Positions 75 to 19,623 of a stretch of 19,623 nt of DNA are shown here, in pieces. The stretch is taken from positions 1 through 19,623 of the forward strand of contig JAGODU010000071.1 in assembly GCA_017998095.1 (NCBI GenBank), in the 5' to 3' direction. Positions within the stretch are counted from its first letter, which is position 1. Each line of letters starts with the position of its first letter. The stretch comes from Prolixibacteraceae bacterium. Lineage in GTDB: Bacteria; Bacteroidota; Bacteroidia; Bacteroidales; Prolixibacteraceae. The position numbers were made by a program, and so were the translations under genes. Under the pieces are notes generated by a model. The model was given only the letters and a program-made list of their open reading frames with translations, ran no database searches and was not told the origin of the DNA.

Positions 75-86
75 AACTTTATATTT

Positions 87-978: not shown

Positions 979-1053
979 TTGTAGCTTTAAAAAAGGTCAG
1001 ATTTTTAGTACATATAATCTGCAACTCATATTCATAAATATTGATTAATTTTT

Positions 1054-1085: not shown

Positions 1086-1105
1086 GAACTATTACTAAAT
1101 ATATA

Positions 1106-1188: not shown

Positions 1189-1210
1189 AAATAAACCCCA
1201 AAAGCACTTT

Positions 1211-1231
1211 AAAAAACCTTAATTATAAGGT
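1211..1231 (-). terminator. Intrinsic terminator overlapping the small ORF stop
   Basis: Read on the minus strand, ACCTTA (1231-1226), a 4-nt loop and TAAGGT (1221-1216) form a 6-bp stem directly followed by a T-run (1216-1211). The loop contains the stop codon of the small minus-strand ORF. The stem is short and AT-rich, so this is a plausible but weak terminator. Its position supports that ORF being a real transcription unit. Confidence 0.4.
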
Positions 1232-1405
1232 GTCAAACTTTCCTTCTTTTTCGCCGGTAATCTTTTTATCTATATACACTTTTTTGCTTGTTTCAACTTT
1301 CTCTATCTTTTTATTAAATTCTTTCATTGCTTCAATTACTTCCTGATTCCTTGCAACAATTTCCTTGACTTCTGAATCATTAAGTAACATTTTTTTTGAT
1401 CTCAT
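1223..1405 (-). CDS. Small charged hypothetical protein
   Basis: I do not recognise this gene. Starting from the ATG at 1405 it encodes 60 residues; a second ATG at 1390 would give 55, beginning MLLNDSEVKEIV. The protein is lysine/glutamate-rich and mostly helical-looking in its first 35 residues, with a short polar tail. No signal peptide or membrane segment is seen. Support comes from the open frame, the terminator-like hairpin at its stop and the lack of a competing gene. The upstream gap to the response regulator stop is about 150 nt, so it may have its own promoter, though I see no clear one. Confidence 0.38.
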   Translation of the reverse strand: MRSKKMLLNDSEVKEIVARNQEVIEAMKEFNKKIEKVETSKKVYIDKKITGEKEGKFDTL

Positions 1406-1553
1406 ATATGCAATGAAAAATAATTTATACACACAAAGTAATGATATAACAAAGCAAAAACCTAATAAACTATCTTTACATTATCACAACAGTCATCTAT
1501 ACTTTATCTATACAAAAATTGTATGAATAAATGCTTTAAATGAAAACCAATAA

Positions 1554-2765: not shown

Positions 2766-2812
2766 TATAATCTCTTTTTCGTAATTTGCATCCTAAGTTA
2801 TTAATGATTTCA

Positions 2813-5533: not shown

Positions 5534-5534
5534 T

Positions 5535-7199
5535 TTAATAATTAAAGCTACTCCCTCCAAGGAACTCTCTTACAAGTGATGTTGGAGGAATCTCTGAACC
5601 ATCGATATCTTTAAAATAGCTTAATAATTTCATTACCCTTAATGATTCCGCAAATTCAGATTGATTTTCAGGAACTGATTTTAATAAAGGTTCGGCATAT
5701 TTCTTCAAAACACCCAACTCATATAATGTAGCTGTGTTAAACATTATATCGGCATTTTCCTGATGAGGGAAAATATTCAGTTCTTCACCCCTTCTTACGC
5801 TTGGCCATCTCTTTATTGTATCAAGAGCGGGTATTCCCCTGTACTGACTATCTCTGATCATTCTTCTTATCAGCCTGTTATCAGTTGGAGAAATAGGATT
5901 ATGGTTATCAATAGATATTGAAGTCAATGCAGATATAAAAATCTTATAAGTAAGAGAAGAATCAATATGGGGCAATAAGTCAGGATTTAAACCATGTATT
6001 CCTTCAATTATCAAAACCTGATTATCTTCCAGCTTAATGAAAGTGCCATCGTAGGAACGGCTTCCTGATGTAAAACTGAATTTTGGTAATTCTACTTCTT
6101 TTCCATCAAGCATTTGATTTAACTGCTCATTAAAGAAATCTATATCGATAGCATTCAAAGCTTCAAAATCGAGATTGCCATGTTCATCACGCGGGGTATG
6201 TTCCCTGTCAACAAAATAATTATCCAATGAAATCATTTTGGATGTAATACCGCATACTGCAAGCTGAACAGCCAATCTTTTTGTAAAAGTGGTTTTCCCC
6301 GAAGATGATGGTCCGGCAATCAATACCAGCTTAACTTTAGGTTTTCTTTCTGAAATAAGTGTAGCAATATTGGCTATCTTTTTTTCGTGCAGAGCTTCTG
6401 AAATTTTAATTACCTCGCCTGCCATTCCTCTCTTTACAAAAGAATTTAATCTGCCTACATCATTTACTCCAAGTATTTCAGCCCATTCCTTATGATCCTG
6501 AAATATTTCAAATAACTTATCTTCCCTGACAAAGCTCCTTAATTGTGAAAAGCTTTCATTGCTCGGCAACCTTAATAGCATTCCGTCATCAAACTTAACC
6601 AGGTCAAACTTTCTTAAATAAGATGTAGATGGGAGTAAATGACCATGAAAATAATTGGCATATTCTTTCAGGTAGTAAATATTTGCATAAAGCAATCCTG
6701 AATCTTCATACAGCCTTATCTTATCCTGCAGGTTATTTGCTTCATATTCCTTTAGAATTTTTTCAAGTTGTTTCTCTTGTCTAATAAATGGTAAATCATC
6801 CTCTACCAATTCTTCCATTCTTTCCTTTATCTTTTCGATATACGTTTTGTATAGCTTACCTTCAAGCCCTTCAAGTTCACAATAAAAGCCTCTGGAAATA
6901 GTATGGTCGATTTTCAGACTAAACTCAGGATATAATTCTTTTACTGCAACATATAACAAAAAGAATAAGGACCTTGTATACATCCTCTTTCCATCTCTGT
7001 TGGAATAATCAATAAACCTTATATTCTTAGGCTTTACAATGCTAAATGACAATTCCCTGACCTTATTGTTGACCAAGGCCCCGCATATAGGAGAATCAGT
7101 TTTTATATTCATATCCTCAGCAATTTCCATCAGGGTAATTCCTAAAGGATACTCTTTATAAACATTATTGTTTTCGCAAAATATCTCTATTGCAATCAT
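5535..7199 (-). CDS. TGS/SAD-fused uridine kinase-like nucleoside kinase
   Basis: A 554-residue cytoplasmic protein. The N-terminus (1-65) resembles a TGS domain; residues about 70-220 resemble the second additional domain of threonyl-tRNA synthetase (IDHTISRGFYCELEG at 97-111) but lack a clear HxxxH metal motif. The C-terminal part (about 285-500) is a phosphoribulokinase/uridine kinase-type P-loop kinase, with GPSSSGKT at 296-303, LDNYFVDRE at 325-333 and IIEGIHGL at 397-404. The expected reaction is ATP-dependent phosphorylation of a nucleoside such as uridine; the true substrate cannot be read from sequence. Such fusions are widespread in Bacteroidota and Clostridia. It lies 13 nt after uvrA on the same strand and probably shares its transcript. 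The TGS/SAD part may act as a regulatory or RNA-sensing module. Confidence 0.88.
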   Translation of the reverse strand: MIAIEIFCENNNVYKEYPLGITLMEIAEDMNIKTDSPICGALVNNKVRELSFSIVKPKNIRFIDYSNRDGKRMYTRSLFFLLYVAVKELYPEFSLKIDHTISRGFYCELEGLEGKLYKTYIEKIKERMEELVEDDLPFIRQEKQLEKILKEYEANNLQDKIRLYEDSGLLYANIYYLKEYANYFHGHLLPSTSYLRKFDLVKFDDGMLLRLPSNESFSQLRSFVREDKLFEIFQDHKEWAEILGVNDVGRLNSFVKRGMAGEVIKISEALHEKKIANIATLISERKPKVKLVLIAGPSSSGKTTFTKRLAVQLAVCGITSKMISLDNYFVDREHTPRDEHGNLDFEALNAIDIDFFNEQLNQMLDGKEVELPKFSFTSGSRSYDGTFIKLEDNQVLIIEGIHGLNPDLLPHIDSSLTYKIFISALTSISIDNHNPISPTDNRLIRRMIRDSQYRGIPALDTIKRWPSVRRGEELNIFPHQENADIMFNTATLYELGVLKKYAEPLLKSVPENQSEFAESLRVMKLLSYFKDIDGSEIPPTSLVREFLGGSSFNY

Positions 7200-7212
7200 A
7201 TCTGTATGTTTT

Positions 7213-10062
7213 TTATTTTTTACTTAATTCTTCCTTAAGAAATTTGCCCGTTATTGAATTTTTATTCTCAACTATTTCTTCCGGAGTGCCTGTTGCCACT
7301 ACTCTTCCTCCGTTTCTTCCTCCTTCAGGACCAATATCTATAATGTAATCAGCAACTTTAATGACATCCATATTGTGCTCAATAACAATTACAGTGTTGC
7401 CCCTGTCAACCAGTCTGTTTAAAACTTCAAGCAAGACTCTGATATCTTCAAAATGTAAGCCTGTTGTTGGTTCATCAAGGATATATATTGTTTTACCGGT
7501 TTCCTTTTTTGATAATTCAGTTGCCAGCTTGACTCTTTGTGCTTCGCCACCTGATATAGTCGTAGATGACTGCCCTAATGTAAGATAACCTAAACCTACT
7601 TCCTGAAGTGCTTTTAACTTATGCAGGATCTTTGGATAGCTTTCAAAGAACTCAACAGCCTGGCTAATTGTCATGTCAAGGACATCACTTATTGATTTAC
7701 CACGGTATCTCACTTCCAGTGTTTCTCTGTTATAACGTTTTCCGTTGCATTTATTGCAATGCACATATACATCGGGAAGGAAATTCATTTCGATAAGTTT
7801 CATTCCTCCACCCTGGCATTCCTCGCAACGTCCACCCTTTACATTAAAAGAAAACCTTCCGGGCTTATATCCTCTGATCTTTGATTCTGGTAAAAGTGTA
7901 AAAAGATCCCTGATATCAGAAAACACACCGGTATATGTAACAGGATTTGATCTTGGTGTTCTCCCTATTGGTGACTGATCAACCTGAACTACCTTATCGA
8001 TATGTTCAAGTCCTTCAATAGTTTTGTAAGGTAGGGGATCAAGCAGGGAATTATAAAAGTGCTGGCTTAATACTGGCTGAAGAGTTTCATTTACTAAAGT
8101 TGATTTACCGCTGCCTGAAACTCCTGTTACACAAATAAATTTGCCTAAAGGAAATTCAGCATCTACCTCTTTAAGGTTGTTTCCTGTGCATCCTGTTATT
8201 TTAATTGCTTTCCCGTTTCCTTTTCTTCGTTTTAAAGGAATTTCAATTTTCTTTTCTCCCTTTAAATATTTAGAAGTCAGTGAGTCACCGTTGAGAATTA
8301 AATCGGGAGTTCCTGCTTCCATTATTTTGCCTCCGTGAATACCTGCATAAGGCCCAATATCAATTAAATAATCAGCTTTCAGCATCATATCCTTGTCATG
8401 CTCGACAACAATAACAGAATTGCCCGTATCTCTTAGCTGTTCCAGTGAATTGATAAGCCTGAGGTTATCCCTGTGATGTAACCCAATACTTGGTTCATCA
8501 AGGATATAAAGCACATTTACCAGTTGAGAGCCGATTTGTGTTGCTAATCTTATTCTTTGTGATTCACCTCCTGATAAGGTTTTTGCTGCACGGTCAAGTG
8601 CCAGGTATTCAAGACCTACATCTATCATAAACCCTAACCTGTCGCGCATTTCTTTTATTATTTCACTAGCAATTAATTTTTGCCTGTCTGATAGTTTGAA
8701 TTCAAGTCCCTGAAGCCATTCACCAAGTTGAATCAAATCAAGTGCTGAAACCTCAGAAATGTTATATCCGTCAATCTTAAACCATAAGGACTCTTTCTTA
8801 AGCCTTTGCCCGTTACATGCGGGACAAACAGTTTCCTTGACATACTGATTTGCCCATTTCTGTGCTTTCTGTGAAGTTGACTCTTCCTGTTGACTTTCAA
8901 TATATTTAACTATCCCCTCGTAAGTCATGAAATAGTTTATGTTTTCACCAAGGGGAGAATTCTTAATTTGTATTCTTTCACCTGTTCCAAATAATATTTT
9001 ATCAAGCGCTTCTTCTGGTATCTCAGAAAGAGGAGTTTTCAGATCAAATCCAAATGACTCAGCTATAGATTCTATTTGCCAGAATACCATTGAATTTCTG
9101 TAAGGTCCTAACGGAGTGATTCCTCCTTTAAATATTGATAACGACTTATCAGGAATAATCTTATCCATATCAAGCTGGGGGATCATTCCCAGTCCGTTAC
9201 ACTTAGGGCAGGCACCCTGAGGCGAATTAAAAGAAAAGTTATGAGGAGCAGGCTCATTATATGATATTCCGGTAGTAGGGCACATCAGGTGGCGGCTGAA
9301 ATACTTACAAACGCCTGTTTCATTATCCAGTATCATAATTATCCCCTGCCCGTGCTTCATGCCTGCCTGCACAGATTCTCTAAGCCTTTTATCTGAAGAA
9401 TCATCAGCAACCAGCTTATCAACTACAATTTCAATAAAGTGATTTTTATATCTGTCAAGCTTTAATCCATGAGTAATCTCTTTTATTTCTCCATCAATCC
9501 TGGCATAAATGAAACCTTTCTTCCGTATTTGCTCGAAGAGCTCCCTGTAATGACCTTTCCTCCCTTTAACCAAAGGAGCAAGTATTACGATTTTTTTCCC
9601 TTTAAAATCTTCTCTTATTAAATCAAGTATTTTTTGCTCGGAATACTTAACCATCTTTTCACCTGTATTGTACGAATATGCTTCACCTATTCTTGCAAAA
9701 AGAAGTCTTAGAAAATCATATATTTCTGTAACAGTTCCTACTGTTGATCTTGGATTCTTATTTGTTGTTTTTTGTTCTATAGATATTACCGGACTTAACC
9801 CTGAAATTTCATCCACATCGGGACGCTCAAGGTTGCCAAGGAATGAACGGGCGTAAGCTGAGAATGTTTCTATATACCTGCGCTGCCCTTCTGCATAAAT
9901 AGTATCAAATGCCAGAGAAGATTTCCCACTTCCGCTTAATCCTGTAATTACCGTAAATTTATTCCGGGGTATGTCCACGTTTACATTATGAAGATTGTTA
10001 ACCCTGGCACCCCTGACTCTGATTACTTCCTGATCAGTATCTTCTTTTAAATTTTCTGACAT
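7213..10062 (-). CDS. uvrA: Excinuclease ABC subunit A (UvrA)
   Basis: The damage-recognition ATPase of nucleotide excision repair; it loads UvrB on distorted DNA. The 949-residue length matches the family. It has two ABC ATPase units: Walker A GLSGSGKS (41-48) with signature LSGGE (496-500) and ILDEPSIGLHH, and Walker A GVSGSGKS (647-654) with signature ISGGE (836-840) and ILDEPTTGLH. Zinc-binding cysteines are seen at CPKCNG (285-290), CPACNG (413-418) and the C746/C749/C769/C772 module, which contributes to damaged-DNA binding. The start ATG at 10060-10062 gives MSENLKEDTD. It follows the lytic transglycosylase by 35 nt and precedes the nucleoside kinase by 13 nt. UvrB and UvrC are not in the window, and no SOS box was recognised. 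Confidence 0.99.
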   Translation of the reverse strand: MSENLKEDTDQEVIRVRGARVNNLHNVNVDIPRNKFTVITGLSGSGKSSLAFDTIYAEGQRRYIETFSAYARSFLGNLERPDVDEISGLSPVISIEQKTTNKNPRSTVGTVTEIYDFLRLLFARIGEAYSYNTGEKMVKYSEQKILDLIREDFKGKKIVILAPLVKGRKGHYRELFEQIRKKGFIYARIDGEIKEITHGLKLDRYKNHFIEIVVDKLVADDSSDKRLRESVQAGMKHGQGIIMILDNETGVCKYFSRHLMCPTTGISYNEPAPHNFSFNSPQGACPKCNGLGMIPQLDMDKIIPDKSLSIFKGGITPLGPYRNSMVFWQIESIAESFGFDLKTPLSEIPEEALDKILFGTGERIQIKNSPLGENINYFMTYEGIVKYIESQQEESTSQKAQKWANQYVKETVCPACNGQRLKKESLWFKIDGYNISEVSALDLIQLGEWLQGLEFKLSDRQKLIASEIIKEMRDRLGFMIDVGLEYLALDRAAKTLSGGESQRIRLATQIGSQLVNVLYILDEPSIGLHHRDNLRLINSLEQLRDTGNSVIVVEHDKDMMLKADYLIDIGPYAGIHGGKIMEAGTPDLILNGDSLTSKYLKGEKKIEIPLKRRKGNGKAIKITGCTGNNLKEVDAEFPLGKFICVTGVSGSGKSTLVNETLQPVLSQHFYNSLLDPLPYKTIEGLEHIDKVVQVDQSPIGRTPRSNPVTYTGVFSDIRDLFTLLPESKIRGYKPGRFSFNVKGGRCEECQGGGMKLIEMNFLPDVYVHCNKCNGKRYNRETLEVRYRGKSISDVLDMTISQAVEFFESYPKILHKLKALQEVGLGYLTLGQSSTTISGGEAQRVKLATELSKKETGKTIYILDEPTTGLHFEDIRVLLEVLNRLVDRGNTVIVIEHNMDVIKVADYIIDIGPEGGRNGGRVVATGTPEEIVENKNSITGKFLKEELSKK

Positions 10063-10097
10063 TGAATATGCGTAGAATTTTGTAATTAATAAATATA

Positions 10098-11003
10098 CTA
10101 TTTTTCAGGCATCTTAATCAAATAGCTCTTTTTGCTTTCATTTTTCAATGAAGTACTCCTTAGCCATGGATTCAGAATCTTCAACATTTTGTAGTTTGTC
10201 CCCTTCCCTTTTGCAAAAGCGGCCAAATCAGGTATCCCCTCTTTTACTTCTACATTTTTGAACTTTATTTCGGGGTAAACTTCACTATCCTTTACAAAAA
10301 ATCCATATTTCTCCGGAGACTCAATTATATATTTTAAGGCAAGTATCCTGAACACATAACGGTTTGTTTCTTCTGAAAATAACAAGTTGTAATAATTATT
10401 CTCCTTTTGACTTTGAATCTGCTGAGAGACACTGCTGTTACCTGTATTATATGAAGCAGCAACAAGTGTCCAGTTACCATAAACAGAATGTGATTTTTTC
10501 AGATAAAGACATGCAGCTTCAGTTGCTTTTTCAATGTTGTATCTTTCATCAACATCATCTGATATTTCAAGACCGTTTTCTTTTGCTGCTGATTTCATGA
10601 ATTGCCATATACCTGCTGCCCCTGAAGGAGAAACCGCTTTAGGGTCAAAACCGCTTTCTGCCAAGGCTAGATATTTAAAATCTTCAGGTATATTGTTTTT
10701 CTTTAAAATGGGTTCTATTATTTTAAAATACCTTTTGGTGAGTTTCAAATATCTTATCGTTTGCGAATGGAAAAAGCTGTTTACTGTTATTTCTCTGTCC
10801 AGCCTTTCAAAAATATCATATTCCTCTATTGGAACTTTCTCTCCTGCAAAATTCACTTCTGCCGGAACAGGGGGAGGAACAATCTTTTGGAAGACTGATT
10901 TATTGTCCGTTGAAGAAGGATCCGCTGGACCGGTAAAAGCTATAGATATAGTGAATAATATTAGCAGAGATATAATTATCAGATATAAAGTCTTTTGTTT
11001 CAT
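10098..11003 (-). CDS. Lytic murein transglycosylase, MltD-like
   Basis: An exported enzyme that cleaves the MurNAc-GlcNAc bond of peptidoglycan to leave 1,6-anhydro ends. From the ATG at 11003 it has 301 residues with a hydrophobic export signal or anchor at about 5-23. The SLT domain (about 95-230) contains the catalytic Glu116 in LALAESGFDP, then GAAGIWQFM and AASYNTGNSSV, all classic family 1 motifs. The C-terminal 60 residues (NVEVKEGIPDLAAFAKGKGT onward) look like a LysM-type peptidoglycan-binding domain. A longer frame begins at a TTG at 11024, but the ATG gives a better signal peptide and lies downstream of a TACTTTTG element. It is the first gene of the apparent transglycosylase-uvrA-nucleoside kinase run. 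Confidence 0.92.
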   Translation of the reverse strand: MKQKTLYLIIISLLILFTISIAFTGPADPSSTDNKSVFQKIVPPPVPAEVNFAGEKVPIEEYDIFERLDREITVNSFFHSQTIRYLKLTKRYFKIIEPILKKNNIPEDFKYLALAESGFDPKAVSPSGAAGIWQFMKSAAKENGLEISDDVDERYNIEKATEAACLYLKKSHSVYGNWTLVAASYNTGNSSVSQQIQSQKENNYYNLLFSEETNRYVFRILALKYIIESPEKYGFFVKDSEVYPEIKFKNVEVKEGIPDLAAFAKGKGTNYKMLKILNPWLRSTSLKNESKKSYLIKMPEK

Positions 11004-11029
11004 TTCGTTTACATTTACATACAAATATG

Positions 11030-11037
11030 CAAAAGTA
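11030..11037 (-). promoter_or_regulatory. Possible -7 element for the transglycosylase-uvrA run
   Basis: On the minus strand TACTTTTG matches the Bacteroidota -7 consensus TAnnTTTG exactly and would start transcription about 20-25 nt before the ATG at 11003. No TTTG is found at the expected 19-21 nt upstream, so the match is only half supported. Confidence 0.3.
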
Positions 11038-11060
11038 ACAGTTTAAAAACTAAATAGATT

Positions 11061-11086
11061 GTAAAAATCAATTATCTGATTTTTAC
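11061..11086 (-). terminator. Perfect 10-bp hairpin after the anti-sigma gene
   Basis: GTAAAAATCA (11061-11070) and TGATTTTTAC (11077-11086) are perfect reverse complements around a 6-nt loop. The hairpin lies 30 nt past the stop of the anti-sigma-like gene on the minus strand and upstream of the transglycosylase. It probably ends the sigma operon, though the stem is AT-rich and only a loose T-rich stretch follows. Confidence 0.45.
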
Positions 11087-11116
11087 TTAAAACAAAGTTG
11101 AGATTAAATCAATTAA

Positions 11117-12520
11117 TCAGAAATTATAGGAAAGGCCTGTAAATACTCCAAACATATATGGTCTGGAATTTATTTCAGATATACTGCTGAGAGAGTTAAG
11201 CTGCATCTTTATTGTTGGCTCAAGTGAAAACCTCAGATTACGGGTAAATGAATAATTGAATCCCAATCCTAAACTGCTGCTGAATGTCAACGGATTTAAT
11301 CCTTCTATTTCTCCATTAGCAACAACTTCATCATTATTGGAAATCTTAACATCATTTACAACAAGAAAGTTTGTATTTATGCCGCCTAAAACGTGTATTC
11401 CAAATTTGCTGTCAATAATCTTATACTTAACTAACAAAGGCACTTCAACATATCCGGCATCCTGATTCAATTCATATGGTCTTATTACTTCAGGAGATAA
11501 ACTGTTCATGTTCCCGGTTGTCTTAATTTGAGTTCCTTCCTGCATAGATACATTGGCTACCCCAATTAATGTATTTAACTCAACCTGATTATCAACTTCC
11601 CCGGCTTTATTACCTCCGGCATATTTTTCATCAGACATAACTCCATATCTGTCATTAATCCAATTCTGACCAGTATATGAAACATTTACATCATGGGCAA
11701 CCTGTGATATCTCCCCATAATTAACTCCACTCTGAACAGTGAGCTTATTATCAATGGAATATGCTACTATTACTCCCCCGGTTACGTTGGTTAAATAGTT
11801 CATTGAGTAATTGTATAAGGCATGATCTTCTCCATTATAATCATTGAAAGATTTATCTGAACCATCAAATCTGTAGGCCGGAGAAGCCTGAACTCCCACT
11901 GCCCATTCCCCTTTTTTCTTTGTATTTGAATTCTCCTTCAAATTTCTCAGATTCATTTCAATTATCGACTTGTCTTCTTCAGATAAATAATGCGTATTCA
12001 TTGCAAGTAAAGTGTATTCTTCCTTTTTATTTGATTTTAGCTTTTCTTTCCTTGGAATTAAAAGTTTGTAAATGAAATTATTTTCTTCGGATACATTTGC
12101 ACTTGAAATTATTCCACTTTTATCCTCATATAAAACTTTTACTTTATCTGAACGATGAACAATAATATTATCCTTCTTATTTGTCCTTTTTTCTTCAACA
12201 ATATAATCTGCTAATGCTTCAGATTCTTTGGGCTTAGTTGATTCATTTGCTTTAACTGACTCAGGCTTACCTTCTACTCCGGCTTCTGAAGTATAATTTA
12301 CAACGCCATTATCTTTATTTGCAAAATACCATCCTCCTATAAATGCAAACAATAATGATGCAGCTGAAGATAAACCCAGGATTAAGAGTGTTCTTCTTCT
12401 CCTCTTTCCTGAATCCATTTCATTGATAATTCCATCCCATACTGAATCGGGAGGAACTACCTCATGATTATTTAGCTTATCCCTAAATAAATTATCAATA
12501 TTTCCATCATTACTATTCAT
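11117..12520 (-). CDS. Membrane-spanning anti-sigma-like protein with C-terminal beta-barrel domain
   Basis: A 467-residue protein in three parts. Residues 1-40 form a short cytoplasmic segment (LFRDKLNNHEVVPPDSVWDG) of the kind that precedes the membrane helix in Bacteroidota sigma-linked proteins. Residues 43-66 form one transmembrane helix flanked by KRRRR. Residues about 70-200 are a charged linker, and about 205-467 look like an outer-membrane beta-barrel domain with alternating hydrophobic strands, ending in GLSYNF with the terminal Phe typical of barrels. Its ATG overlaps the sigma factor stop by 8 nt, so the two are translationally coupled and it very likely controls that sigma factor. 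From memory, Bacteroides has proteins of this plan described as dual membrane-spanning anti-sigma factors. Whether this one spans both membranes is inference. Confidence 0.8.
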   Translation of the reverse strand: MNSNDGNIDNLFRDKLNNHEVVPPDSVWDGIINEMDSGKRRRRTLLILGLSSAASLLFAFIGGWYFANKDNGVVNYTSEAGVEGKPESVKANESTKPKESEALADYIVEEKRTNKKDNIIVHRSDKVKVLYEDKSGIISSANVSEENNFIYKLLIPRKEKLKSNKKEEYTLLAMNTHYLSEEDKSIIEMNLRNLKENSNTKKKGEWAVGVQASPAYRFDGSDKSFNDYNGEDHALYNYSMNYLTNVTGGVIVAYSIDNKLTVQSGVNYGEISQVAHDVNVSYTGQNWINDRYGVMSDEKYAGGNKAGEVDNQVELNTLIGVANVSMQEGTQIKTTGNMNSLSPEVIRPYELNQDAGYVEVPLLVKYKIIDSKFGIHVLGGINTNFLVVNDVKISNNDEVVANGEIEGLNPLTFSSSLGLGFNYSFTRNLRFSLEPTIKMQLNSLSSISEINSRPYMFGVFTGLSYNF

Positions 12521-13061
12521 ATACCTTCCCTATATATCCTAATTCTGTCACCTTATCCTGTAAAATTTTTCTTGCCCTTGCCAGATTCGACTTTGATGTC
12601 CCTTCTGCAATGCCAAGTATTTCTGAAATCTCTTTATGTGTATACCCGTCAATTGCATACATGTTGAAAACCAATCTGTACTGAGGAGGCAAATTCCTGA
12701 TGACTTCCAGCAACTGCCCTGCACTCATCTCATCTAATGAATCGTTTTCAACCCTTCTCGACTCATAGATGCTTATATCTTCAACAGTTTGCATCTTAAA
12801 ACGAGACCTGTATTTCTCAAACGAATTATTCACTACAATCCTTCTCATCCAGCCTTCAAAAGAACCTTTAAAAGAATACTGCCCAATTTTGTTGAATATC
12901 ATGATAAAACTTTCATGCAATACATCTTCTGCTTCAGTTACATCACGCGAATACCTGAGACATACTCCATATAATTTTGGAGCATATAATTTGTATAACC
13001 GGGTTTGAGCCTCTCGTTTCCCCGCTTTACAATCACTTATCAATTTCTCAAGGTCTTCCAA
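12513..13061 (-). CDS. ECF-type RNA polymerase sigma factor
   Basis: A 182-residue sigma-70 family protein of the extracytoplasmic function class. Region 2 (about 10-85) includes DVLHESFIMIFNKI and GSFEGWMRRIVVNN, for -10 recognition and core binding. Region 4 (about 120-172) includes LPPQYRLVFNMYAIDGYTH and the helix-turn-helix EISEILGIAEGTSKSNLARA, for -35 recognition. The start is a TTG at 13059-13061: an in-frame stop lies four codons upstream, no ATG occurs before region 2 is well under way, and AAAGG sits just before it. It overlaps the anti-sigma-like gene by 8 nt. Its likely role is envelope-responsive transcription released by that partner; the target promoters are unknown. Confidence 0.92.
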   Translation of the reverse strand: MEDLEKLISDCKAGKREAQTRLYKLYAPKLYGVCLRYSRDVTEAEDVLHESFIMIFNKIGQYSFKGSFEGWMRRIVVNNSFEKYRSRFKMQTVEDISIYESRRVENDSLDEMSAGQLLEVIRNLPPQYRLVFNMYAIDGYTHKEISEILGIAEGTSKSNLARARKILQDKVTELGYIGKVYE

Positions 13062-13089
13062 TTGCCTTTAAATATTTTGCAACAACTAT

Positions 13090-13111
13090 TTATCTTAATT
13101 AAAAGATAAAG
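13090..13111. repeat. AT-rich inverted repeat before the sigma gene
   Basis: TTTATCTT and AAGATAAA are perfect 8-nt arms around a 6-nt AATTAA loop. It lies in the 56-nt gap between the lipoprotein stop and the sigma factor TTG start. It could be a weak terminator for the lipoprotein transcript or a regulator site for the sigma gene. Confidence 0.3.
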
Positions 13112-13117
13112 TTAAAG

Positions 13118-13588
13118 CTATTCGTTTAATTCTGAAACATAAAATTCCTCTTTCATCCCCTCTTTAAAAAGAACTGTAGTTGTTCCCAAAATATTATAAT
13201 CTTTAATCATACAAAGAACGTATTCTCCTTTTTTCAAATTTCTCATGCCGGCTTCCACATCATATCTGCACATGCAACGACAATTACCCTGAACTTTTTC
13301 ATATTCACTGAAATATAATGTGTCATTGCTCAAACTGACATCTATTCCAATCCCTTCAGGCAAACAGCAATTATAACTTGCATCATAGTGAGTAATCATA
13401 TAATTGTTGTCAGTCAGAGATGTTATAATTACCAAATCAGTACTGTCTGTTAATCCTGTACTCTTTAATCCTTTACACCCCCGATACTCAGTTGATGCTA
13501 ATTCCATTTCATTTTTATTGATATCAAAAGAATCATCGCACCCGGAAAAAATCATAGCACTTATCAACACCAGATATATTCTTTTCAT
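13118..13588 (-). CDS. Cysteine-rich lipoprotein of unknown function
   Basis: A 156-residue protein with a lipoprotein signal peptide: MKRIYLVLISAMIFSGC, lipidated Cys17. Past the lipobox it carries Cys at CKGL, a CC pair in NCCLPEG and a CRCMC cluster, seven cysteines in all, enough for disulfides or metal binding. The stretch after the cluster, YDVEAGMRNLKKGEYVLCMI, resembles small Bacteroidota envelope lipoproteins that I recognise only loosely. It lies 56 nt upstream of the sigma factor on the same strand and divergent from the serpin operon (114 nt between starts). It might be part of the sigma unit as a sensor or target. The function is not assigned. Confidence 0.75.
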   Translation of the reverse strand: MKRIYLVLISAMIFSGCDDSFDINKNEMELASTEYRGCKGLKSTGLTDSTDLVIITSLTDNNYMITHYDASYNCCLPEGIGIDVSLSNDTLYFSEYEKVQGNCRCMCRYDVEAGMRNLKKGEYVLCMIKDYNILGTTTVLFKEGMKEEFYVSELNE

Positions 13589-13627
13589 TGTCGATTTTTT
13601 ACCAGAGATGATATATTAAAACAAATG

Positions 13628-13650
13628 GTTGCGTGGACGCAACTTTTTTT
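13628..13650 (+). terminator. Hairpin plus T-run in the serpin operon leader
   Basis: GTTGCG, loop TGGA and CGCAAC form a GC-rich 6-bp stem, followed at once by seven T residues (13644-13650). This is the form of a plus-strand intrinsic terminator, but it sits 53 nt before the first serpin start and after no plus-strand gene nearby. It could attenuate the operon, block read-through antisense to the divergent lipoprotein, or serve as an operator palindrome (TTGCGT/ACGCAA). Confidence 0.5.
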
Positions 13651-13702
13651 GCACATTGTACATCATGGAGAAAATAATAATTCAAAATAAAAATCAAATA
13701 CT

Positions 13703-14929
13703 ATGAAAAATAAACCTGTTTTATCAGCATTTGTAATCCTCTTTGCTTTTACTTCCTGCGACTGGATTAATCCTGAAAAGGAAATTGAAGATATTGTCCT
13801 GAATGACAAGTCAGCTCAAATTGTTGAAAGCAATAATTCATTTGGATTCAATTTGTTTGAAAAAGTATTATCATCTGAAGAAACTGATAAGAATATTATG
13901 ATTTCACCATTGAGTATAAGCCAGGCCCTTTCAATGGCTCTTAACGGTGCGAATGGCAATACCCTGACTCAAATGCAGGATATACTTGGTTTCAAAGACT
14001 TTTCAACGGGGGATATTAATTACAGCAATCAGCTTATTGTAAACTCTCTGGTTAACCATGATCCGAAAGTTAAATTGCAAGTTGCCAATTCCGTGTGGTA
14101 TCGTAACGATTTCACTCCCAAGACTGACTTCATAAGTGCAAATCAAACTTACTACAATGCTGAAGTAAGTCAGTATGATCCGGCTAAACCTGATGAAGCA
14201 AAGAATAACATGAATAATTGGGTTGAAGATAAAACCAATGGCAAGATTAAAGAAATAATTGATAATGTAACTCCTGATAATGTGCTGTTCCTTTTAAATG
14301 CAGTTTACTTTAAAGGCGTTTGGAAAACACAGTTTAAAAAATCAAATACAGAAAGCCTTCCCTTTACTTTGGATAACGGCAGTGAAATTAATGTTGAAAC
14401 TATGACCGGAAAAGTAAACCTTTCTTACTACAACGAAGAAAAGTTTTCAGTAATTAAACTCCCCTACGGACAAGGGAAATTCAACATGTTTATTTTCCTC
14501 CCTGAAGAAGGTTACACTACTAATGACATAGCATCGGAAGTCAAGATAACCAATTTCGCTTCCCTCAATAATTCTGTACCTTCAGAAAGAGAAATATGGC
14601 TTCCTAAATTTGAATTTGAATATAAAAATGAACTCAATAACGAACTCAGTGATTTGGGAATGACAAATGCCTTCAATTCCAGTGTCGCCGACTTCAGTAA
14701 TATTGCTGATATCAATCTTTATATTTCAAAGGTTAATCACAAAACTTACATCAAAACTGATGAAGAAGGAAGTGAAGCAGCAGCTGCAACTTCAGTTGAA
14801 GTCAGCTTTACTTCTGTTGGTCCGGATGGAATTATAATGATTAATCGTTCATTCCTCTTTGCAATCGTTGAAGATGATACTAATTCTATCCTCTTTATAG
14901 GAAAAGTATATGATCCTTCAAAGAAATAA
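13703..14929 (+). CDS. Serpin family protease inhibitor, lipoprotein (serpin 1)
   Basis: A 408-residue serpin with a lipoprotein signal peptide ending FTSC (lipidated Cys19), so it should be anchored in the envelope, probably on the outer membrane. The fold is complete: NIMISPLSISQALSMAL (64-80), NAVYFKGVWKTQF (199-211), the reactive-centre hinge EEGSEAAAAT (354-363) and the family signature NRSFLFAIVEDDTNSILFIG (381-400). The small-residue hinge is typical of inhibitory serpins, which trap a protease by inserting the cut loop. Counting from the hinge glycine as P15 puts P1-P1' at Thr370-Ser371, with Phe369 at P2. Miropin of Tannerella is a known lipoprotein serpin from this phylum. This is the first gene of a five-gene run that ends with a second serpin. 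Confidence 0.95.
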   Translation: MKNKPVLSAFVILFAFTSCDWINPEKEIEDIVLNDKSAQIVESNNSFGFNLFEKVLSSEETDKNIMISPLSISQALSMALNGANGNTLTQMQDILGFKDFSTGDINYSNQLIVNSLVNHDPKVKLQVANSVWYRNDFTPKTDFISANQTYYNAEVSQYDPAKPDEAKNNMNNWVEDKTNGKIKEIIDNVTPDNVLFLLNAVYFKGVWKTQFKKSNTESLPFTLDNGSEINVETMTGKVNLSYYNEEKFSVIKLPYGQGKFNMFIFLPEEGYTTNDIASEVKITNFASLNNSVPSEREIWLPKFEFEYKNELNNELSDLGMTNAFNSSVADFSNIADINLYISKVNHKTYIKTDEEGSEAAAATSVEVSFTSVGPDGIIMINRSFLFAIVEDDTNSILFIGKVYDPSKK

Positions 14930-14960
14930 TATTATTGAGACAGTATTCTAAAATTAATCT

Positions 14961-15485
14961 ATGGAATTCCGGAGAATCATATCGCCATTTGCTTTAATAC
15001 TGCTTTTCATTGCCTTTGCCGTAATTACTGCAATCGTATTTCTTCAGAAAGGTAGAAACACCAAATGGATATCACGCAAAATGAAACTGGGGGCAGCAAT
15101 TCTCACTATAACAGGCATTACTACCGGCTGCCCCCCTCAGGTTACCTGCTACGATCCTGTGCCAAGCAACTTCTTCCAGTTCGATCAGATTAACTATGAT
15201 GAAAACGCTATTATTGTTGATCTTCCAAAAGATACTGTTATAACAGGAAGGATTATTACTCCTGATTTTGACGCTTATTCTTTTGAAATCTCAACTACTG
15301 ACTCAGTTGTTGTTCAAACAGGCTATGTTATCCCTGAAGATGGAAAGCTTGACAGTGATGATGAAAAAATTAAAATCATTGTTGACAGTAAATTAATTGA
15401 AGGTGACTATTACTTAAATATATCCTCTGCTGAAGATGATTTTGAAAACTACGTTGTATGCCGTAATAATCTGAAAATAAAATGA
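14961..15485 (+). CDS. Membrane-anchored protein with CPPQVTCYDP segment, possible radical SAM substrate
   Basis: A 174-residue protein with a transmembrane helix at about 8-28, a basic stretch (KGRNTKWISRKMK), a second hydrophobic stretch at 42-56 ending TTGC57, and then CPPQVTCYDPVPSN. The remaining 105 residues are acidic and beta-rich, and only three Cys are present (57, 63, 167). I recognise this loosely as an uncharacterised Bacteroidota family with a TGC...CY motif. The ATG of the radical SAM gene lies in the stop codon (ATGA), so the two proteins are made together. The CPPQVTC segment is a candidate site for modification by that enzyme. TGC57 could instead be a lipobox, though a lipobox after an earlier helix would be unusual. 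It starts 31 nt after serpin 1. Confidence 0.78.
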   Translation: MEFRRIISPFALILLFIAFAVITAIVFLQKGRNTKWISRKMKLGAAILTITGITTGCPPQVTCYDPVPSNFFQFDQINYDENAIIVDLPKDTVITGRIITPDFDAYSFEISTTDSVVVQTGYVIPEDGKLDSDDEKIKIIVDSKLIEGDYYLNISSAEDDFENYVVCRNNLKIK

Positions 15486-16537
15486 TCAGCCTGCTCCGGA
15501 ATAATAAACCCAATATACAGTATGTGGTCTTCGAGGCAACTCAAAGATGTAACCTCAACTGCTCATATTGCTATAATCACTGGAAGGGAAATTTTAAAGA
15601 TCAAAAACTATCTCCGGAAAACTATAACCATCTGAAAAACACTATAAGTAAACTATTTAAATCAGCTAATATCAATCATATCACATTTTCAGGAGGAGAG
15701 CCTCTTTTAGTTGAAAGACTAAAAGAGCTCTCCCTTTTCTGCAGGTTCAAAAGGGCTTCTGTTTCAGTTATTACAAATGGAAATGCAGGTACTGAAGACG
15801 ATATTCAGCAATTATTGTCTATCGGAGTTAAACTTTTTGAACTCCCATTTCATTCTTTTTCTCCTGACATTCATGATGAAATGACCGGAGTAAAAGGGTC
15901 ATGGAGCAAGGCGAAAACCCGAATGACTTTTATCAGAGATGCCGGAGGAATGGTCGTCCCTGTTATTGTTATTACAAAATACAATTTTCAAACTATTGCC
16001 GACACTCTAAAATGCCTGAATGATATGGGGTTCAAACGTATTATGCTTAACCGGTATAACATTGGAGGAATAAATACTAATTCTCCATTAAACGTTCTGC
16101 CCTCAAAGGATGAATTAAACTTTGCCTTTTATCAGGCCTCTGAAACAGGAAAGAAACTTAATCTTGACCTTTCTTCTAATGTCTGCACTCCCCACTGCAT
16201 CCTAAACCCGTCAGACTATAAAAATATCCGGTTTTCAAATTGCTCTGCTGATATTAATAAAAGGCCTTTGACTATAACTGCTACCGGTGACTTAAGATTT
16301 TGTAATCATTCACCGGTTGTCTTAGGGAATATTTTCACTGACACAATTGAAAACATACTTGCCAAAGGTCAACAATCCAACGATTGCCTGACTATCCCTT
16401 CTTTCTGCAACAACTGCAACCTGTATGACAAATGCCTCGGCGGATGCAGGGCTGCTGCCCAACAGGCAGGTAAAACATTTCACGATGTTGACCCAATAAC
16501 AGAGTACATGAAACATGAATTCACCTGTTATACTTAG
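15482..16537 (+). CDS. Radical SAM/SPASM-domain peptide or protein maturase
   Basis: A 351-residue cytoplasmic iron-sulfur enzyme. The radical SAM cluster motif is CNLNCSYC (Cys23, 27, 30), followed by SGGEP (70-74) for SAM binding. The C-terminal SPASM domain is complete: Cys254, Gly269 and Cys274 (CX14GX4C), then Cys309, 312, 318 and 322 (CX2CX5CX3C) and Cys349. These normally bind two extra [4Fe-4S] clusters. Extra cysteines at 235, 239 and 302 are present. SPASM enzymes usually modify ribosomally made peptides or proteins, by thioether, C-C or formylglycine chemistry; the exact reaction cannot be read here. It overlaps the upstream membrane protein by ATGA, which makes that protein the first substrate candidate. 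The next gene starts 4 nt after its stop. Confidence 0.93.
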   Translation: MISLLRNNKPNIQYVVFEATQRCNLNCSYCYNHWKGNFKDQKLSPENYNHLKNTISKLFKSANINHITFSGGEPLLVERLKELSLFCRFKRASVSVITNGNAGTEDDIQQLLSIGVKLFELPFHSFSPDIHDEMTGVKGSWSKAKTRMTFIRDAGGMVVPVIVITKYNFQTIADTLKCLNDMGFKRIMLNRYNIGGINTNSPLNVLPSKDELNFAFYQASETGKKLNLDLSSNVCTPHCILNPSDYKNIRFSNCSADINKRPLTITATGDLRFCNHSPVVLGNIFTDTIENILAKGQQSNDCLTIPSFCNNCNLYDKCLGGCRAAAQQAGKTFHDVDPITEYMKHEFTCYT

Positions 16538-16541
16538 CAAT

Positions 16542-17363
16542 ATGAAAACCATGATTAAAACATGTATCTCTCTGTTTATCATCCTGAGCTTAGCTGGATG
16601 CGATAAAAATGATTCATTCCACGACCTTGTCTCCGGAAAATATATCTTCATTTTTAATGAAGTCAATGATACTATTTGTGCTAATTCATATGATAAAATC
16701 GGACTACTGATAAAAAGTATATCGCATGATGATGCATATTCCCCGGGTGAAAATGCTGAATTAAATTATACCTACAATTCCAATAACCTATTGGTTAAAA
16801 AAACAGGCTACATTCCGGGAATAATGTATATATCAAGCTATCAGGGAGCTATGGGCAAGGAAGTTAAGCTTATTTATGAATATGATGAGAACGACAGGCT
16901 TTCAAAGATCACTACCTTTTTCCATTATCCCGATTTCCCGGAAATTGATTATACTTCAATACAAACCTTTGAATACTTTGATGATAAAGTCATTGAATAC
17001 AATGGAAATACCCCGGAAGAAATAACCTTGAGAACAGAATATTTATTAAACGATAAAGGCAATATTCAAACAAAACTTTATTACTACAAATCAGAAGCTG
17101 ACAGCTTTATTTTAAACACCAAGGAAGAGTATACATACGACAACTATAAAACTCCTTTCCAGGCAGAGCCTACCCCTAAGTCAAAAAACAACGTCCTTAC
17201 TAATAAGATAACTTATTATCAAAGTGATGAACAAGGAATTTACTACCAATCATATACATCTGATTTTTCAAATGAATACGAATATAATATTAACGGATAC
17301 CCGGAGAAAATGATTATAACATATCCGAACTGGAATAAAGAAACAAGAATCTATAAATATTAA
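16542..17363 (+). CDS. YD-repeat-like lipoprotein
   Basis: A 273-residue lipoprotein from the ATG at 16542, whose signal peptide ends SLAGC (Cys20). An earlier in-frame ATG at 16515 would overlap the radical SAM gene by 23 nt and give a longer, less typical leader. The mature part is tyrosine-rich with spaced beta-hairpin-like repeats: YTYNSNNLLVKK (76-87), YEYDENDRLSKI (112-123), TEYLLNDKGNIQTK, EEYTYDN and NEYEYNINGYPEKM. These resemble YD/RHS-type or related Bacteroidota surface repeats, but no RHS core or toxin tail is present. It lies 4 nt after the radical SAM gene and 5 nt before serpin 2. The function is unknown; an envelope partner of the serpins is inference. Confidence 0.82.
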   Translation: MKTMIKTCISLFIILSLAGCDKNDSFHDLVSGKYIFIFNEVNDTICANSYDKIGLLIKSISHDDAYSPGENAELNYTYNSNNLLVKKTGYIPGIMYISSYQGAMGKEVKLIYEYDENDRLSKITTFFHYPDFPEIDYTSIQTFEYFDDKVIEYNGNTPEEITLRTEYLLNDKGNIQTKLYYYKSEADSFILNTKEEYTYDNYKTPFQAEPTPKSKNNVLTNKITYYQSDEQGIYYQSYTSDFSNEYEYNINGYPEKMIITYPNWNKETRIYKY

Positions 17364-17368
17364 ATACC

Positions 17369-18604
17369 ATGAAAATGAAAAACTTATCTGTCATACTCTT
17401 TGCAATTACCTTATTAATTGCCGTTTCTTGCAAGGAAAACGAAATCGATGATCCTAAGGTAATTGATGTCAATGAGAAATCAGAACTCCTCATCTTAGAA
17501 ACCAATGAGTTTGGTCTTGACATGTTTCGACTTATCAACAATTATGAAACGGATAACTTTACTATCTCCCCTCTAAGTGTTGCTCTTGCCCTTGCCATGA
17601 CTTACAACGGAGCTGAAGGCGAAACTAAGATTGCCATGGAAAAAGCAATGCGCCTTTGGGGCTTAACCACCGAAGAGATTAACGCAAGCTACCAAAGCCT
17701 TACCAAAGCGCTTCTTGAAGCTGATCCAAAGGTCACTCTTGAGATTGCCCAATCAATATGGTACAAGCAGAATTATAATGTTTTGAAGGGTTTTAAATCT
17801 GTAAATGAAACCTATTATGATGCGGAAGTCAAAGAACTTGATTTCAGTCGCCCCGATGCTAAAGATGTTATCAACAAATGGATTGAAGATAAAACTCATA
17901 ATAAGATAAAAGATATGATAAAGGAAGTTAATCCTTTACATGTCATGTTTCTTGTCAATGCAGTTTATTTCAATGGAGTATGGCAAAGTGAATTTAAAAA
18001 ATCAGATACTTTTAAGTCAGATTTCTATAAAGAAGATGGAACTAAACTTGAAGTTGACATGATGAAGAAAAAGGATACTGTCAATTATTTTTACAACGAC
18101 CAGTTTAAAGACCTTTTCACTGCTGTCGAATTACCCTATGGCAGAGGAAACTTCAATATGGTTATACTTCTACCCGGGGAAAATAAAACCTGCAATGATG
18201 TAATTGAGAAGATGACCCCTGATAACTGGCATATATGGATGGATAGCTTCAGAAATAAAGATGAAGTAAGTGTCTGGTTGCCAAAATTCAAAGATGAATA
18301 TAAAATTAAACTAAACGATGTACTTACAGAAATGGGAATGGGTATTGCCTTCAACGGTAAAGCTGACTTCAGTGGTATAAACGGAGAAGGGGGAATTTAT
18401 ATTGATTATGTCCAGCACAACACTTTCATAGATGTAAATGAAAAAGGAACCGAAGCTGCTGCAGCAACAGTGGTTGCTATAAAAGAAATGGCTGCTCTTC
18501 CGGAAAATGAATTCCATGTAAACAAACCTTTCATTTTTGCTATTACAGAGAAAGAAACAAATGCTATCCTCTTTATTGGAAAAATGAAAGAACCAAAATA
18601 TTAA
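17369..18604 (+). CDS. Serpin family protease inhibitor, lipoprotein (serpin 2)
   Basis: A 411-residue paralogue of serpin 1 with a lipoprotein signal ending IAVSC (Cys21). Core serpin elements are present: NFTISPLSVALALAMTYNGA (63-82), NAVYFNGVWQSEF (197-209), hinge EKGTEAAAAT (358-367) and the NKPFIFAITEKETNAILFIG region (385-404). The reactive loop differs from serpin 1: counting the hinge glycine as P15 puts P1-P1' at Met374-Ala375 in IKEMAAL, which would suit elastase-like or subtilisin-like targets. The two serpins share framework motifs but not the bait loop, the pattern expected after duplication and re-targeting. It is the last gene of the operon, and its stop overlaps the stop of the convergent dehydrogenase gene by two bases. 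An internal ATG two codons later is an alternative start. Confidence 0.95.
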   Translation: MKMKNLSVILFAITLLIAVSCKENEIDDPKVIDVNEKSELLILETNEFGLDMFRLINNYETDNFTISPLSVALALAMTYNGAEGETKIAMEKAMRLWGLTTEEINASYQSLTKALLEADPKVTLEIAQSIWYKQNYNVLKGFKSVNETYYDAEVKELDFSRPDAKDVINKWIEDKTHNKIKDMIKEVNPLHVMFLVNAVYFNGVWQSEFKKSDTFKSDFYKEDGTKLEVDMMKKKDTVNYFYNDQFKDLFTAVELPYGRGNFNMVILLPGENKTCNDVIEKMTPDNWHIWMDSFRNKDEVSVWLPKFKDEYKIKLNDVLTEMGMGIAFNGKADFSGINGEGGIYIDYVQHNTFIDVNEKGTEAAAATVVAIKEMAALPENEFHVNKPFIFAITEKETNAILFIGKMKEPKY

Positions 18605-19590
18605 ATTAAAGCCTCAGGATTAACGACATAGGGTATTGTTTTATATTTACAATACCCTATTATATTTTCTGCTGCCAGTATTGACATCTTCGCCCTTACT
18701 TCTTCAGTGCCCGAACCAATATGTGGCAGTACTGCAACGTTTTCCATTTCCAGTAAAGGATTATCAGATTTCATAGGTTCAGGATCAGTAACATCAAGTC
18801 CTGCACCCCAAATGTTATTATTATTTAAAGCCTCAATGAGATCTGTCTCATTATGTACTTGCCCTCTCGAAGTATTGATAAAAATGGCAGTCTCCTTCAT
18901 CTTTTCGAAAACCTCTTTATTAAAAATTCCTCTTGTTTCTTCGTTTAATGAACAATGAACTGATAATACATTGCTTTCTTTAAGAAGGTCTTCAAAGGAA
19001 ACCATTCGGGCACCTAACATCTGCTCGGCTAAATGATTACTTTTTCTGCTGCAATAAATAACCTTCATCCCGTATGCCCCCTTACACCTCATTGCCATTT
19101 CAAAGCCTATTCTTCCCATCCCGAATATCCCTAAAGTCTTTCCCTTTAGTTCTATACCAAGATGAGCAGATGGAGTAAAATATTTCCACTCTCCTCTTTG
19201 TATTGATTTATGATGCCAGAACATCTTCCTTGAAGTGGCTATCATCAAACCAAATGCTATATCAGCAGTTGCTTCACTTAATACATCAGGGGTATTGCCA
19301 ACAGGTATTTTCAATCTGGTTGCCTCAGAAATATCAATATTGTCGTACCCTACTCCAAATTGAGATATCATCTTTATATGACTACACTCATTCAGAAATT
19401 GCTTGTCAATTCTGTCGGTTAAAGTACAGAATAAAATATTGTGACTCTTTGATTTGCTTATAAGCTCTTCATGAGACATCGGGTAATCTTCCCCCCTTTC
19501 CGTAATTGTAAATCCTCCTGCTTTTAACAAGTCAATACCTGCAGCAGGAAAATTACGGGTAATCAATATTTTATAATCTTGTTCCTCCAT
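18601..19590 (-). CDS. D-isomer-specific 2-hydroxyacid dehydrogenase (glyoxylate/hydroxypyruvate reductase-like)
   Basis: An NAD(P)-dependent cytoplasmic oxidoreductase of 329 residues, the normal length. The nucleotide fold has GIFGMGRIG (154-162, the GxGxxG motif). Catalytic residues are Arg242 in NTSRGQV, Glu271 in DVTDPEP and His290 in LPHIGSGT, the Arg-Glu-His set of the family. The substrate-binding FGVGYDNID segment (78-86) is typical of the GhrB/glyoxylate reductase branch, which reduces glyoxylate or hydroxypyruvate; phosphoglycerate dehydrogenase is less likely because no C-terminal ACT domain is present. Start ATG at 19588-19590. It converges on serpin 2 with overlapping stop codons, and a possible upstream gene ends directly before its ATG. 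Confidence 0.92.
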   Translation of the reverse strand: MEEQDYKILITRNFPAAGIDLLKAGGFTITERGEDYPMSHEELISKSKSHNILFCTLTDRIDKQFLNECSHIKMISQFGVGYDNIDISEATRLKIPVGNTPDVLSEATADIAFGLMIATSRKMFWHHKSIQRGEWKYFTPSAHLGIELKGKTLGIFGMGRIGFEMAMRCKGAYGMKVIYCSRKSNHLAEQMLGARMVSFEDLLKESNVLSVHCSLNEETRGIFNKEVFEKMKETAIFINTSRGQVHNETDLIEALNNNNIWGAGLDVTDPEPMKSDNPLLEMENVAVLPHIGSGTEEVRAKMSILAAENIIGYCKYKTIPYVVNPEALI

Positions 19591-19623
19591 TTAAATATGA
19601 ATAGCTTCATTATAAGCAGCAGC
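19591..19623 (-). CDS. Possible C-terminal end of an upstream minus-strand gene
   Basis: Read on the minus strand from the right edge, the frame encodes AAAYNEAIHI and stops at TAA (19593-19591), directly before the dehydrogenase ATG. The zero-nt spacing fits an operon, but ten codons are too few to name a family and chance is possible. Confidence 0.3.
   Translation of the reverse strand, partial: AAAYNEAIHI

Follow-up and report, generated by a model that had tools for sequence, protein, structure and literature searches.

The 19,623-nucleotide (nt) stretch of DNA analysed here, referred to as the window, comes from a Prolixibacteraceae bacterium of the order Bacteroidales (assembly GCA_017998095.1, contig JAGODU010000071.1, positions 1 to 19,623, forward strand) and carries a five-gene block that encodes two serpin lipoproteins, a protein of 174 amino acids (aa), a radical S-adenosylmethionine (SAM)/SPASM enzyme and a YD-like lipoprotein. 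Our analysis indicates, with a probability of roughly 0.7, that the five genes constitute one predicted transcription unit, likely driven by an extracytoplasmic function (ECF) sigma factor, in which a serpin core is joined by an optional cassette, the enzyme and the 174-aa protein, that is predicted to modify an invariant Cys-Tyr pair, likely before export. The features of the locus are listed below (L and G numbers denote loci and genomes).

13703..14929, plus strand: serpin1 lipoprotein (PF00079), bait P1-P1' Thr-Ser; in the serpin tree with the six serpin1 rows (100/100)
14961..15485, plus strand: 174-aa partner protein A (alignments; structure model)
15482..16537, plus strand: radical SAM/SPASM enzyme, predicted maturase of A (PF04055; Cys pattern; model; Foldseek)
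16542..17363, plus strand: YD-like lipoprotein, orthologues in L001, L073 and L142-L144; Pfam RHS_repeat at 16 bits, below the cut-off of 22
17369..18604, plus strand: serpin2-type lipoprotein (PF00079), variable bait (P1 Met); in the tree with the 11 serpin2-type rows (100/99)
13638..13664, plus strand: predicted ECF promoter toward the serpin genes (CGCAAC-N17-CATC), 38 nt upstream of the serpin ATG; kept in 6/6 loci
13607..13633, minus strand: predicted ECF promoter toward the sigma operon, CGCAAC-N17-CATC (pattern scan); found likewise in the remaining five loci (N16 in L144)
13118..13588, minus strand: lipo156, a Cys-rich lipoprotein of 156 aa (reading frame); orthologues in L001, L142, L143 and L144
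12513..13061, minus strand: ECF-type sigma-70 factor (TIGR02937; Sigma70_r2 and r4)
11117..12520, minus strand: OMP467, with a cytoplasmic N-terminus, one transmembrane segment (by eye) and a C-terminal outer-membrane β-barrel (PF13568, E-value 1.4e-8)

Paired promoter-like sites and the serpin core

The original prediction had described the five genes as a single co-directional operon, and their strand, coordinates and gaps (31, -4, 4 and 5 nt, all on the plus strand) were all reproduced; a conserved promoter-like site upstream bears the operon out as a predicted transcription unit. The kinds of protein named there were recovered as well, the serpins by PF00079 (E-values 3.9e-108 and 1.9e-116) and the enzyme by PF04055 with a near-threshold SPASM match. 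For the YD-like lipoprotein the ATG at 16542 gives the 4-nt gap, and an in-frame upstream ATG at 16515 would overlap the enzyme gene. The unit is larger than the five genes, as it includes a divergent ECF operon (11117-13588, minus strand) and paired sites (13607-13664) in the 114-nt gap between the two operons.

This gap contains two back-to-back copies of CGCAAC-N17-CATC, one facing each operon. The window holds two matches to the pattern versus 0.01 expected, and two copies occurred in 0/200 shuffles. Both sites are present as CGCAAC-N17-C[AG]TC in L001, L073, L142 and L143, and L144 has an exact serpin-side site and a sigma-side site with a 16-nt spacer; over the six loci 11 of 12 sites are exact. 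Across 30 other enzyme or partner stretches (478,899 bases in total) the relaxed pattern was absent. We read the paired sites as pointing to autoregulation by the ECF factor and ECF control of the serpin operon, and the serpin genes are thus likely switched on by the neighbouring sigma factor. For Flavobacterium psychrophilum, PMC9723704 describes an ECF-type motif that has a CGT box at -10.

The ECF factor scores 85.6 bits on TIGR02937 (cut-off 42.9), has sigma70 regions 2 and 4 and is 63-67% identical among the window, L001 and L073. The barrel protein OMP467, the gene for which adjoins the ECF gene in 6/6 loci (window, L001, L073, L142-L144), begins with a PPxxxW-type cytoplasmic segment followed by the transmembrane segment seen by eye, and is a possible fused anti-sigma factor and outer-membrane sensor for the ECF factor. 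Lipo156 holds a CC...CxCxC pattern; no match to it was found in L073, and a relative (E-value 4.3e-12) sits behind an intergenic site of the same pattern elsewhere in G426 (L122). By eye, intergenic sites in G001 and G426 often precede lipoprotein-like genes (L111, L119, L112, L120, L130), which may represent a wider regulon of surface lipoproteins. Two of these, L111 and L119, look YD-like by eye but went undetected by the YD profile.

The core, a chromosomal locus, was found in six genomes (window, L001, L073, L142, L143 and L144) and consists of the ECF sigma factor, the barrel protein and mostly the Cys-rich lipoprotein, divergent from serpin1, the YD lipoprotein and a serpin of the serpin2 type; in L143 and L144 the YD gene precedes serpin1. 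Concatenation of the ECF, barrel, serpin1 and YD proteins gives 45-70% identity between the loci. Neighbouring genes that are uvrA-like and transglycosylase-like (named by eye) are common to the window, L073, L142, L143 and L144; the L001 contig ends earlier, and a methyltransferase-like gene, also named by eye, is common to L001, L073 and L142-L144. The five-gene order itself recurs in L001, with a second partner paralogue, and in L073, with two more serpins, and the five proteins are 38-64% identical across these three loci, so that the arrangement is no chance association.

The serpin profile covers the full length of both window serpins (residues 42-405 and 45-409; 362 and 390 bits versus a cut-off of 27). 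A tree of all 17 block serpins together with 20 others from the order places the six serpin1 proteins in one clade (100/100) and the 11 of the serpin2 type in a second (100/99), three of the latter being copies in L073 and four in L142. When the P1 position of the reactive-centre loop was counted from the P15 Gly, P1-P1' was Thr-Ser in 6/6 serpin1 proteins; the P1 residues of the 11 serpin2-type copies were Met, Thr, Phe, Arg, Thr, Tyr, Thr, Arg, Thr, Leu and Leu. As judged from these sequences, the serpin2 type is duplicated and diversified and serpin1 keeps one bait. The hinge of inhibitory serpins, P17-P9, is given as ExGTEAAAA-like in PMC8233489. An inhibitory hinge is present in 17/17 block serpins, with the form GSEAAAA in serpin1, and the search pattern failed in 2/20 of the other serpins. 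The block serpins are predicted protease traps, as had been proposed at the outset.

Serpins are common, occurring in 162/393 genomes of the order. A survey of the family matched window serpin1 at 56-66% in six genomes (G001, G426, G425, G510, G514 and, partially, G509); the remaining matches among the rows listed were at 49% or less, and 112/140 genomes had some match. The top solved serpin for serpin1 was 5ncs (E-value 1.8e-74), the Tannerella forsythia serpin miropin.

The enzyme and its Cys-Tyr partner

The enzyme has 351 aa and matches PF04055 from residue 19 (E-value 2.1e-20). Across 42 sequences the CX3CX2C triad (C23, C27, C30) is invariant, as are eight further Cys residues, which would be enough for auxiliary clusters. 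SPASM auxiliary clusters are bound by the pattern C-X(9-15)-G-X4-C ... C-X2-C-X5-C-X3-C ... C, to which the invariant residues C254, G269, C274, C309, C312, C318 and C322 correspond; its final Cys, however, is not conserved, and the Pfam SPASM score stays just below the cut-off. A structure model of the enzyme (predicted local distance difference test score, pLDDT, 88.7) was used for Foldseek, and the first distinct matches were the peptide/protein modifiers SkfB, anSMEcpe and SuiB, followed by viperins and PqqE and, further down, ChlB. No NCBIfam cut-off was reached by the enzyme among the best 25 of 93 matches, nor was one reached by the 174-aa protein. A plasmid search with the enzyme returned 234 records, all below 60% identity, the five listed being at 23-27%. 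The window, L001 and L073 enzymes fall in one clade (100/100) together with 14 metagenome proteins. An enzyme-relative fragment in which several cluster Cys residues are replaced lies at L082:1175-1651 (G071), with a partner gene on another contig (L034); this fragment likely reflects decay.

With an enzyme profile threshold of E ≤ 1e-60, the enzyme was found in 23/393 genomes of the order, 3/140 of the family and 3/395 of a phylum sample, G001 being part of all three samples. The full-length set comprised the loci at E ≤ 1e-100 and the window (23), of which L076 was dropped as it lies at a contig end; of the 22 evaluable loci, the 21 besides the window are all matches of the enzyme profile, and five weaker relatives (L081-L084 and L088; E-values 1e-60 to 1e-74) were left out. 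The gene directly upstream of the enzyme encodes a small C[YH] protein in 22/22 loci, with Cys-Tyr in 21 and Cys-His in one (L078), at a distance of -26 to +83 nt. For comparison, 120 size-matched other frames from the same loci, spurious frames included, contained C[YH] in 19 cases and CY in 10. In all, 42 candidate partners were listed across the loci, and the outermost of a run may be a chance inclusion because a run ends only at the first frame without C[YH]. The window partner profile matches 15/393 genomes, 13 of which have the full enzyme; of the other two, G071 has the enzyme fragment and G054 has no enzyme (a weak match, E-value 1.2e-4, to a 784-aa frame). Some partners do not lie on the enzyme contig (L036, L046).

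The 174-aa protein consists of an N-terminal hydrophobic helix, a second hydrophobic helix that ends in TTGC (lipobox-like, C57), the C63-Y64 pair and an Ig-like (immunoglobulin-like) β-sandwich. Its model has a mean pLDDT of 83.4 and eight strands, with block means of 91-95 over residues 71-150. The best matches in the PDB were mostly immunoglobulin-type domains (best E-value 1.6e-4), from which no function follows. In an alignment of 33 relatives only Gly44, Cys63 and Tyr64 are invariant, and because of this the enzyme most likely modifies Cys-Tyr before export. Conservation and pairing make the 174-aa protein a likely target of the enzyme, in agreement with the earlier view of it as the modified product.

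Located after the second hydrophobic helix, the motif is in many cases preceded by a lipobox-like Cys; it is doubled in L040, L042, L043 and P0139, and repeated C-terminally as NTCYF/NTCYY in L038, L046 and L047. What stands behind it is an Ig-like sandwich, a TonB_C domain or little else. Six proteins picked by eye as TonB-like all matched TonB_C (6/6), and two others tested with them matched no family; partners with this domain occur in L074, L075, L077, L079 and L080. TonB_C proteins with a leader and Cys-Tyr before the enzyme lie at L074:8894, L075:7677/8228/8782, L077:8027/8722, L079:4388 and L080:8769 (six of these eight were tested). Short partners of 75-98 aa with little beyond the motif form tandem arrays in L078 and L046. 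At L078:8402-9561, five tandem leader peptides of 75-81 aa, with TCH/SCH replacing TCY, directly precede the enzyme gene, and judging by these sequences L078 is a Cys-His branch of the partner family. L046:9284-11316 is an array of short and long Cys-Tyr proteins; there was no enzyme match in its 20-kb stretch, and the same genome (G148) has an enzyme on another contig (L039). A second, diverged partner paralogue of 193 aa lies at L001:4815-5396, between serpin1 and the 176-aa partner.

Profile comparison revealed that the leader is conserved across Ig-type, short and one TonB_C protein: a profile built from Ig-type proteins only finds the short partners of L046 and L078 (E-values 4.5e-4 to 1.4e-11) and the leader of the L079 TonB_C protein (3.2e-7, residues 1-98), the Cys-Tyr of which lies just beyond. 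At 44 motif sites the residue at i+2 from Tyr/His varies (V 12, P 11, M 6, T 5, I 3, others); this count excludes CH sites of the lipobox type, an internal GCY in L001, two sites at the C-terminus (L038, L047) and the outlying proteins L038 249 aa, L047 147 aa and L077 191 aa. Since i+2 is variable whereas the Cys before the Tyr/His does not change, we favour a reaction involving this Cys, for instance formation of a Cys-Tyr/Cys-His link, with the exact bond put forward as a proposal.

Separability of the modules and alternative explanations

Among the 22 full-length enzyme loci, serpins occur in the fetched stretch of three (window, L001 and L073) and no serpin was found in the fetched stretch of the other 19; these stretches span 3 to 20 kb, with only about 1 kb on each side in L031. 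Conversely, L142, L143 and L144 have the ECF/serpin/YD locus without the enzyme pair, and an enzyme search of their genomes gave no match, so that the cassette is present in 3/6 core loci. The L073 and L142 cores are 70% identical, so that the gain or loss of the pair there is fairly recent. On this evidence the window unit is made of two separable modules behind one predicted promoter, a serpin core and an optional cassette.

These data bear directly on the original prediction, which had envisaged one envelope-defence system. Shared control of its parts is likely, but their mutual dependence is not supported: the homologues of the enzyme and its partner, whose location had been chosen beforehand as the check on this claim, mostly have no serpin in the fetched stretch (19/22 loci), and with the L142-L144 cores that have no pair this leads us to reject a serpin-dependent pair. 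An integrated defence machine, with interdependent parts and physical cooperation between the modified protein and the serpins, would fit the common operon order of the window, L001 and L073 at 38-64% identity and the common upstream promoter-like site, yet we consider it improbable given the 19 enzyme loci without a serpin in the fetched stretch and the serpin/YD/ECF locus that is intact without the pair in three of six genomes. Vertical synteny of a slowly rearranging locus, without shared control of serpins and pair, would explain why the uvrA-like and transglycosylase-like neighbours recur in the window, L073 and L142-L144 and the methyltransferase-like gene in L001, L073 and L142-L144 (all by eye); the gaps of only -4 to 31 nt, the common upstream promoter-like site and the fact that the pair, at about 50% identity, keeps its place between serpin1 and YD make this account less probable still.

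Two further alternatives concern the chemistry. The pair may represent a ribosomally synthesised and post-translationally modified peptide (RiPP) system, in which cleavage of the leader yields a small modified Cys-Tyr peptide as the product and the Ig-like or TonB_C domain is a mere carrier. The short partners and their tandem arrays (L078, L046) are what such a system would predict, but the confidently folded domain behind the motif of the window protein is not, and no recurring peptidase or exporter was seen by eye in the enzyme neighbourhoods, where no search was aimed at either; we regard this explanation as doubtful, on a par with the interdependent machine. The enzyme could also be a Cys-to-formylglycine maturase acting on Cys63 alone, like the anaerobic sulfatase maturases. 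Indeed, anSMEcpe is among the closest folds (TM-score up to 0.71) and acts on a Cys of a protein. However, Tyr is as invariant as Cys in the 33/33 relatives and is replaced only by His in L078, although formylglycine formation does not need a Tyr; moreover, no sulfatase was found among the nine window proteins scanned and no anaerobic sulfatase maturase model among the best 25 of the 93 NCBIfam matches. Formylglycine formation is therefore about as remote a prospect as synteny without shared control.

Several results weigh against the reading that we prefer, an ECF-driven serpin core with an optional Cys-Tyr cassette. In G509 the serpin1 relative lies at a contig start, is partial and is followed by no block genes. 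Genome-wide, the CATC pattern had 13 matches versus 1 for its reversed form in G001 and 16 versus 7 in G426, so that the reversed pattern still has seven matches in the latter, and 8/13 and 5/16 of the matches, respectively, fall in coding frames. We only infer an anti-sigma role for OMP467. The SPASM match of the enzyme is just under the Pfam cut-off (20 versus 21.5 bits). No C[YH] was found in the two frames upstream of the weaker enzymes L082, L083, L084 and L088, and L081 cannot be judged; 9/23 enzyme genomes of the order have no match to the window partner profile; and no homology to the Ig-type leader could be detected for the TonB_C leaders of L074, L075 and L080, and only a weak one for that of L077. 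Finally, all counts are drawn from sampled genomes (1857 genome searches, repeats included).

Proposed mechanism and comparison with known systems

From what is observed, namely the gene order, the paired sites, their recurrence, the separability of the modules, the invariance of Cys-Tyr and the exchange of the domains behind it, we infer the remaining mechanism as follows. An envelope signal would free the ECF factor, perhaps via the barrel protein, and the factor would then transcribe the serpin operon along with its own. The serpins would be placed outside the inner membrane, perhaps at the cell surface, to trap serine proteases, with serpin1 as a fixed bait and the serpin2 type as a duplicated, altered bait. 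In the cytosol, the enzyme may bind the hydrophobic leader of the 174-aa protein, and a SAM-derived radical would alter Cys63 and/or Tyr64. The 174-aa protein would then be exported and probably lipidated at Cys57, so that the altered dipeptide would end six residues from the anchor, in front of the Ig-like domain. The cassette would use the serpin promoter but perform a job of its own.

In the genomes examined, the cassette is found without serpins more often than with them, and it is therefore a candidate for a new kind of protein modification that is plugged into a likely protease-defence operon. A broader proposal, which we offer tentatively and at somewhat less than even odds, is that an unnamed Bacteroidota radical SAM/SPASM family crosslinks Cys-Tyr/Cys-His behind the leader of exported proteins, so that any domain that follows would receive a portable modified N-terminus, and that this family is here wired into an ECF-driven surface serpin arsenal with one constant and several diversifying baits. 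Such a family would act at a well-defined site that is open to testing, Cys-Tyr/Cys-His, on proteins of several folds, TonB C-terminal domains among them, and the window pair reached no NCBIfam equivalog cut-off among the matches shown. In open-licence PMC literature (titles and abstract starts, among the matches listed) there was no serpin/radical-SAM operon and no Cys-Tyr radical SAM lipoprotein family, and PMC10352776 contains none of the words serpin, TonB or lipoprotein.

Among named families, TIGR04133 (rSAM_w_lipo) comprises radical SAM/SPASM enzymes that resemble the window enzyme and, as the name of the model implies, are paired with a lipoprotein; these enzymes have their lipoprotein partner in a Bacteroidota setting. 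However, the window enzyme scores 60.7 bits against this model, far under the cut-off of 425. The fold is common to SkfB, anSMEcpe, SuiB and PqqE, and the auxiliary-cluster Cys pattern of known SPASM maturases resembles that of the window enzyme, but the Foldseek alignments with these four show 14-18% identity, the window enzyme, its core match starting at residue 19, has no space for a recognition domain at the N-terminus, and the window partner, a multi-domain membrane protein with a Cys-Tyr motif, is unlike their substrates. The triceptide enzymes YxdB, HaaB and YhhB act on Tyr or His and link the ring to residue i+2 (PMC11002830). In the window family, by contrast, i+2 is variable and offers no single acceptor, and the Cys at i-1 is invariant; the conserved i+2 acceptor of a triceptide (3-CyFE) system was absent from the 44 sites. 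A viperin or other anti-phage function was also rejected, as the enzyme reaches 68.3 bits versus the NCBIfam viperin cut-off of 180 and only its radical SAM core is matched; PADLOC likewise matched only this core and nothing in the other seven proteins tested.

The functions of bacterial serpins are termed 'relatively enigmatic' in a serpin phylogeny (PMC8233489). The locus would place them in a genetic context, namely a likely sigma-factor regulon in which one bait is fixed and several diversify; the inducer and target proteases of this regulon are testable. Miropin is the closest solved serpin to serpin1, and what distinguishes the system described here is that serpin lipoproteins with constant and variable baits stand together in a predicted ECF-driven operon.

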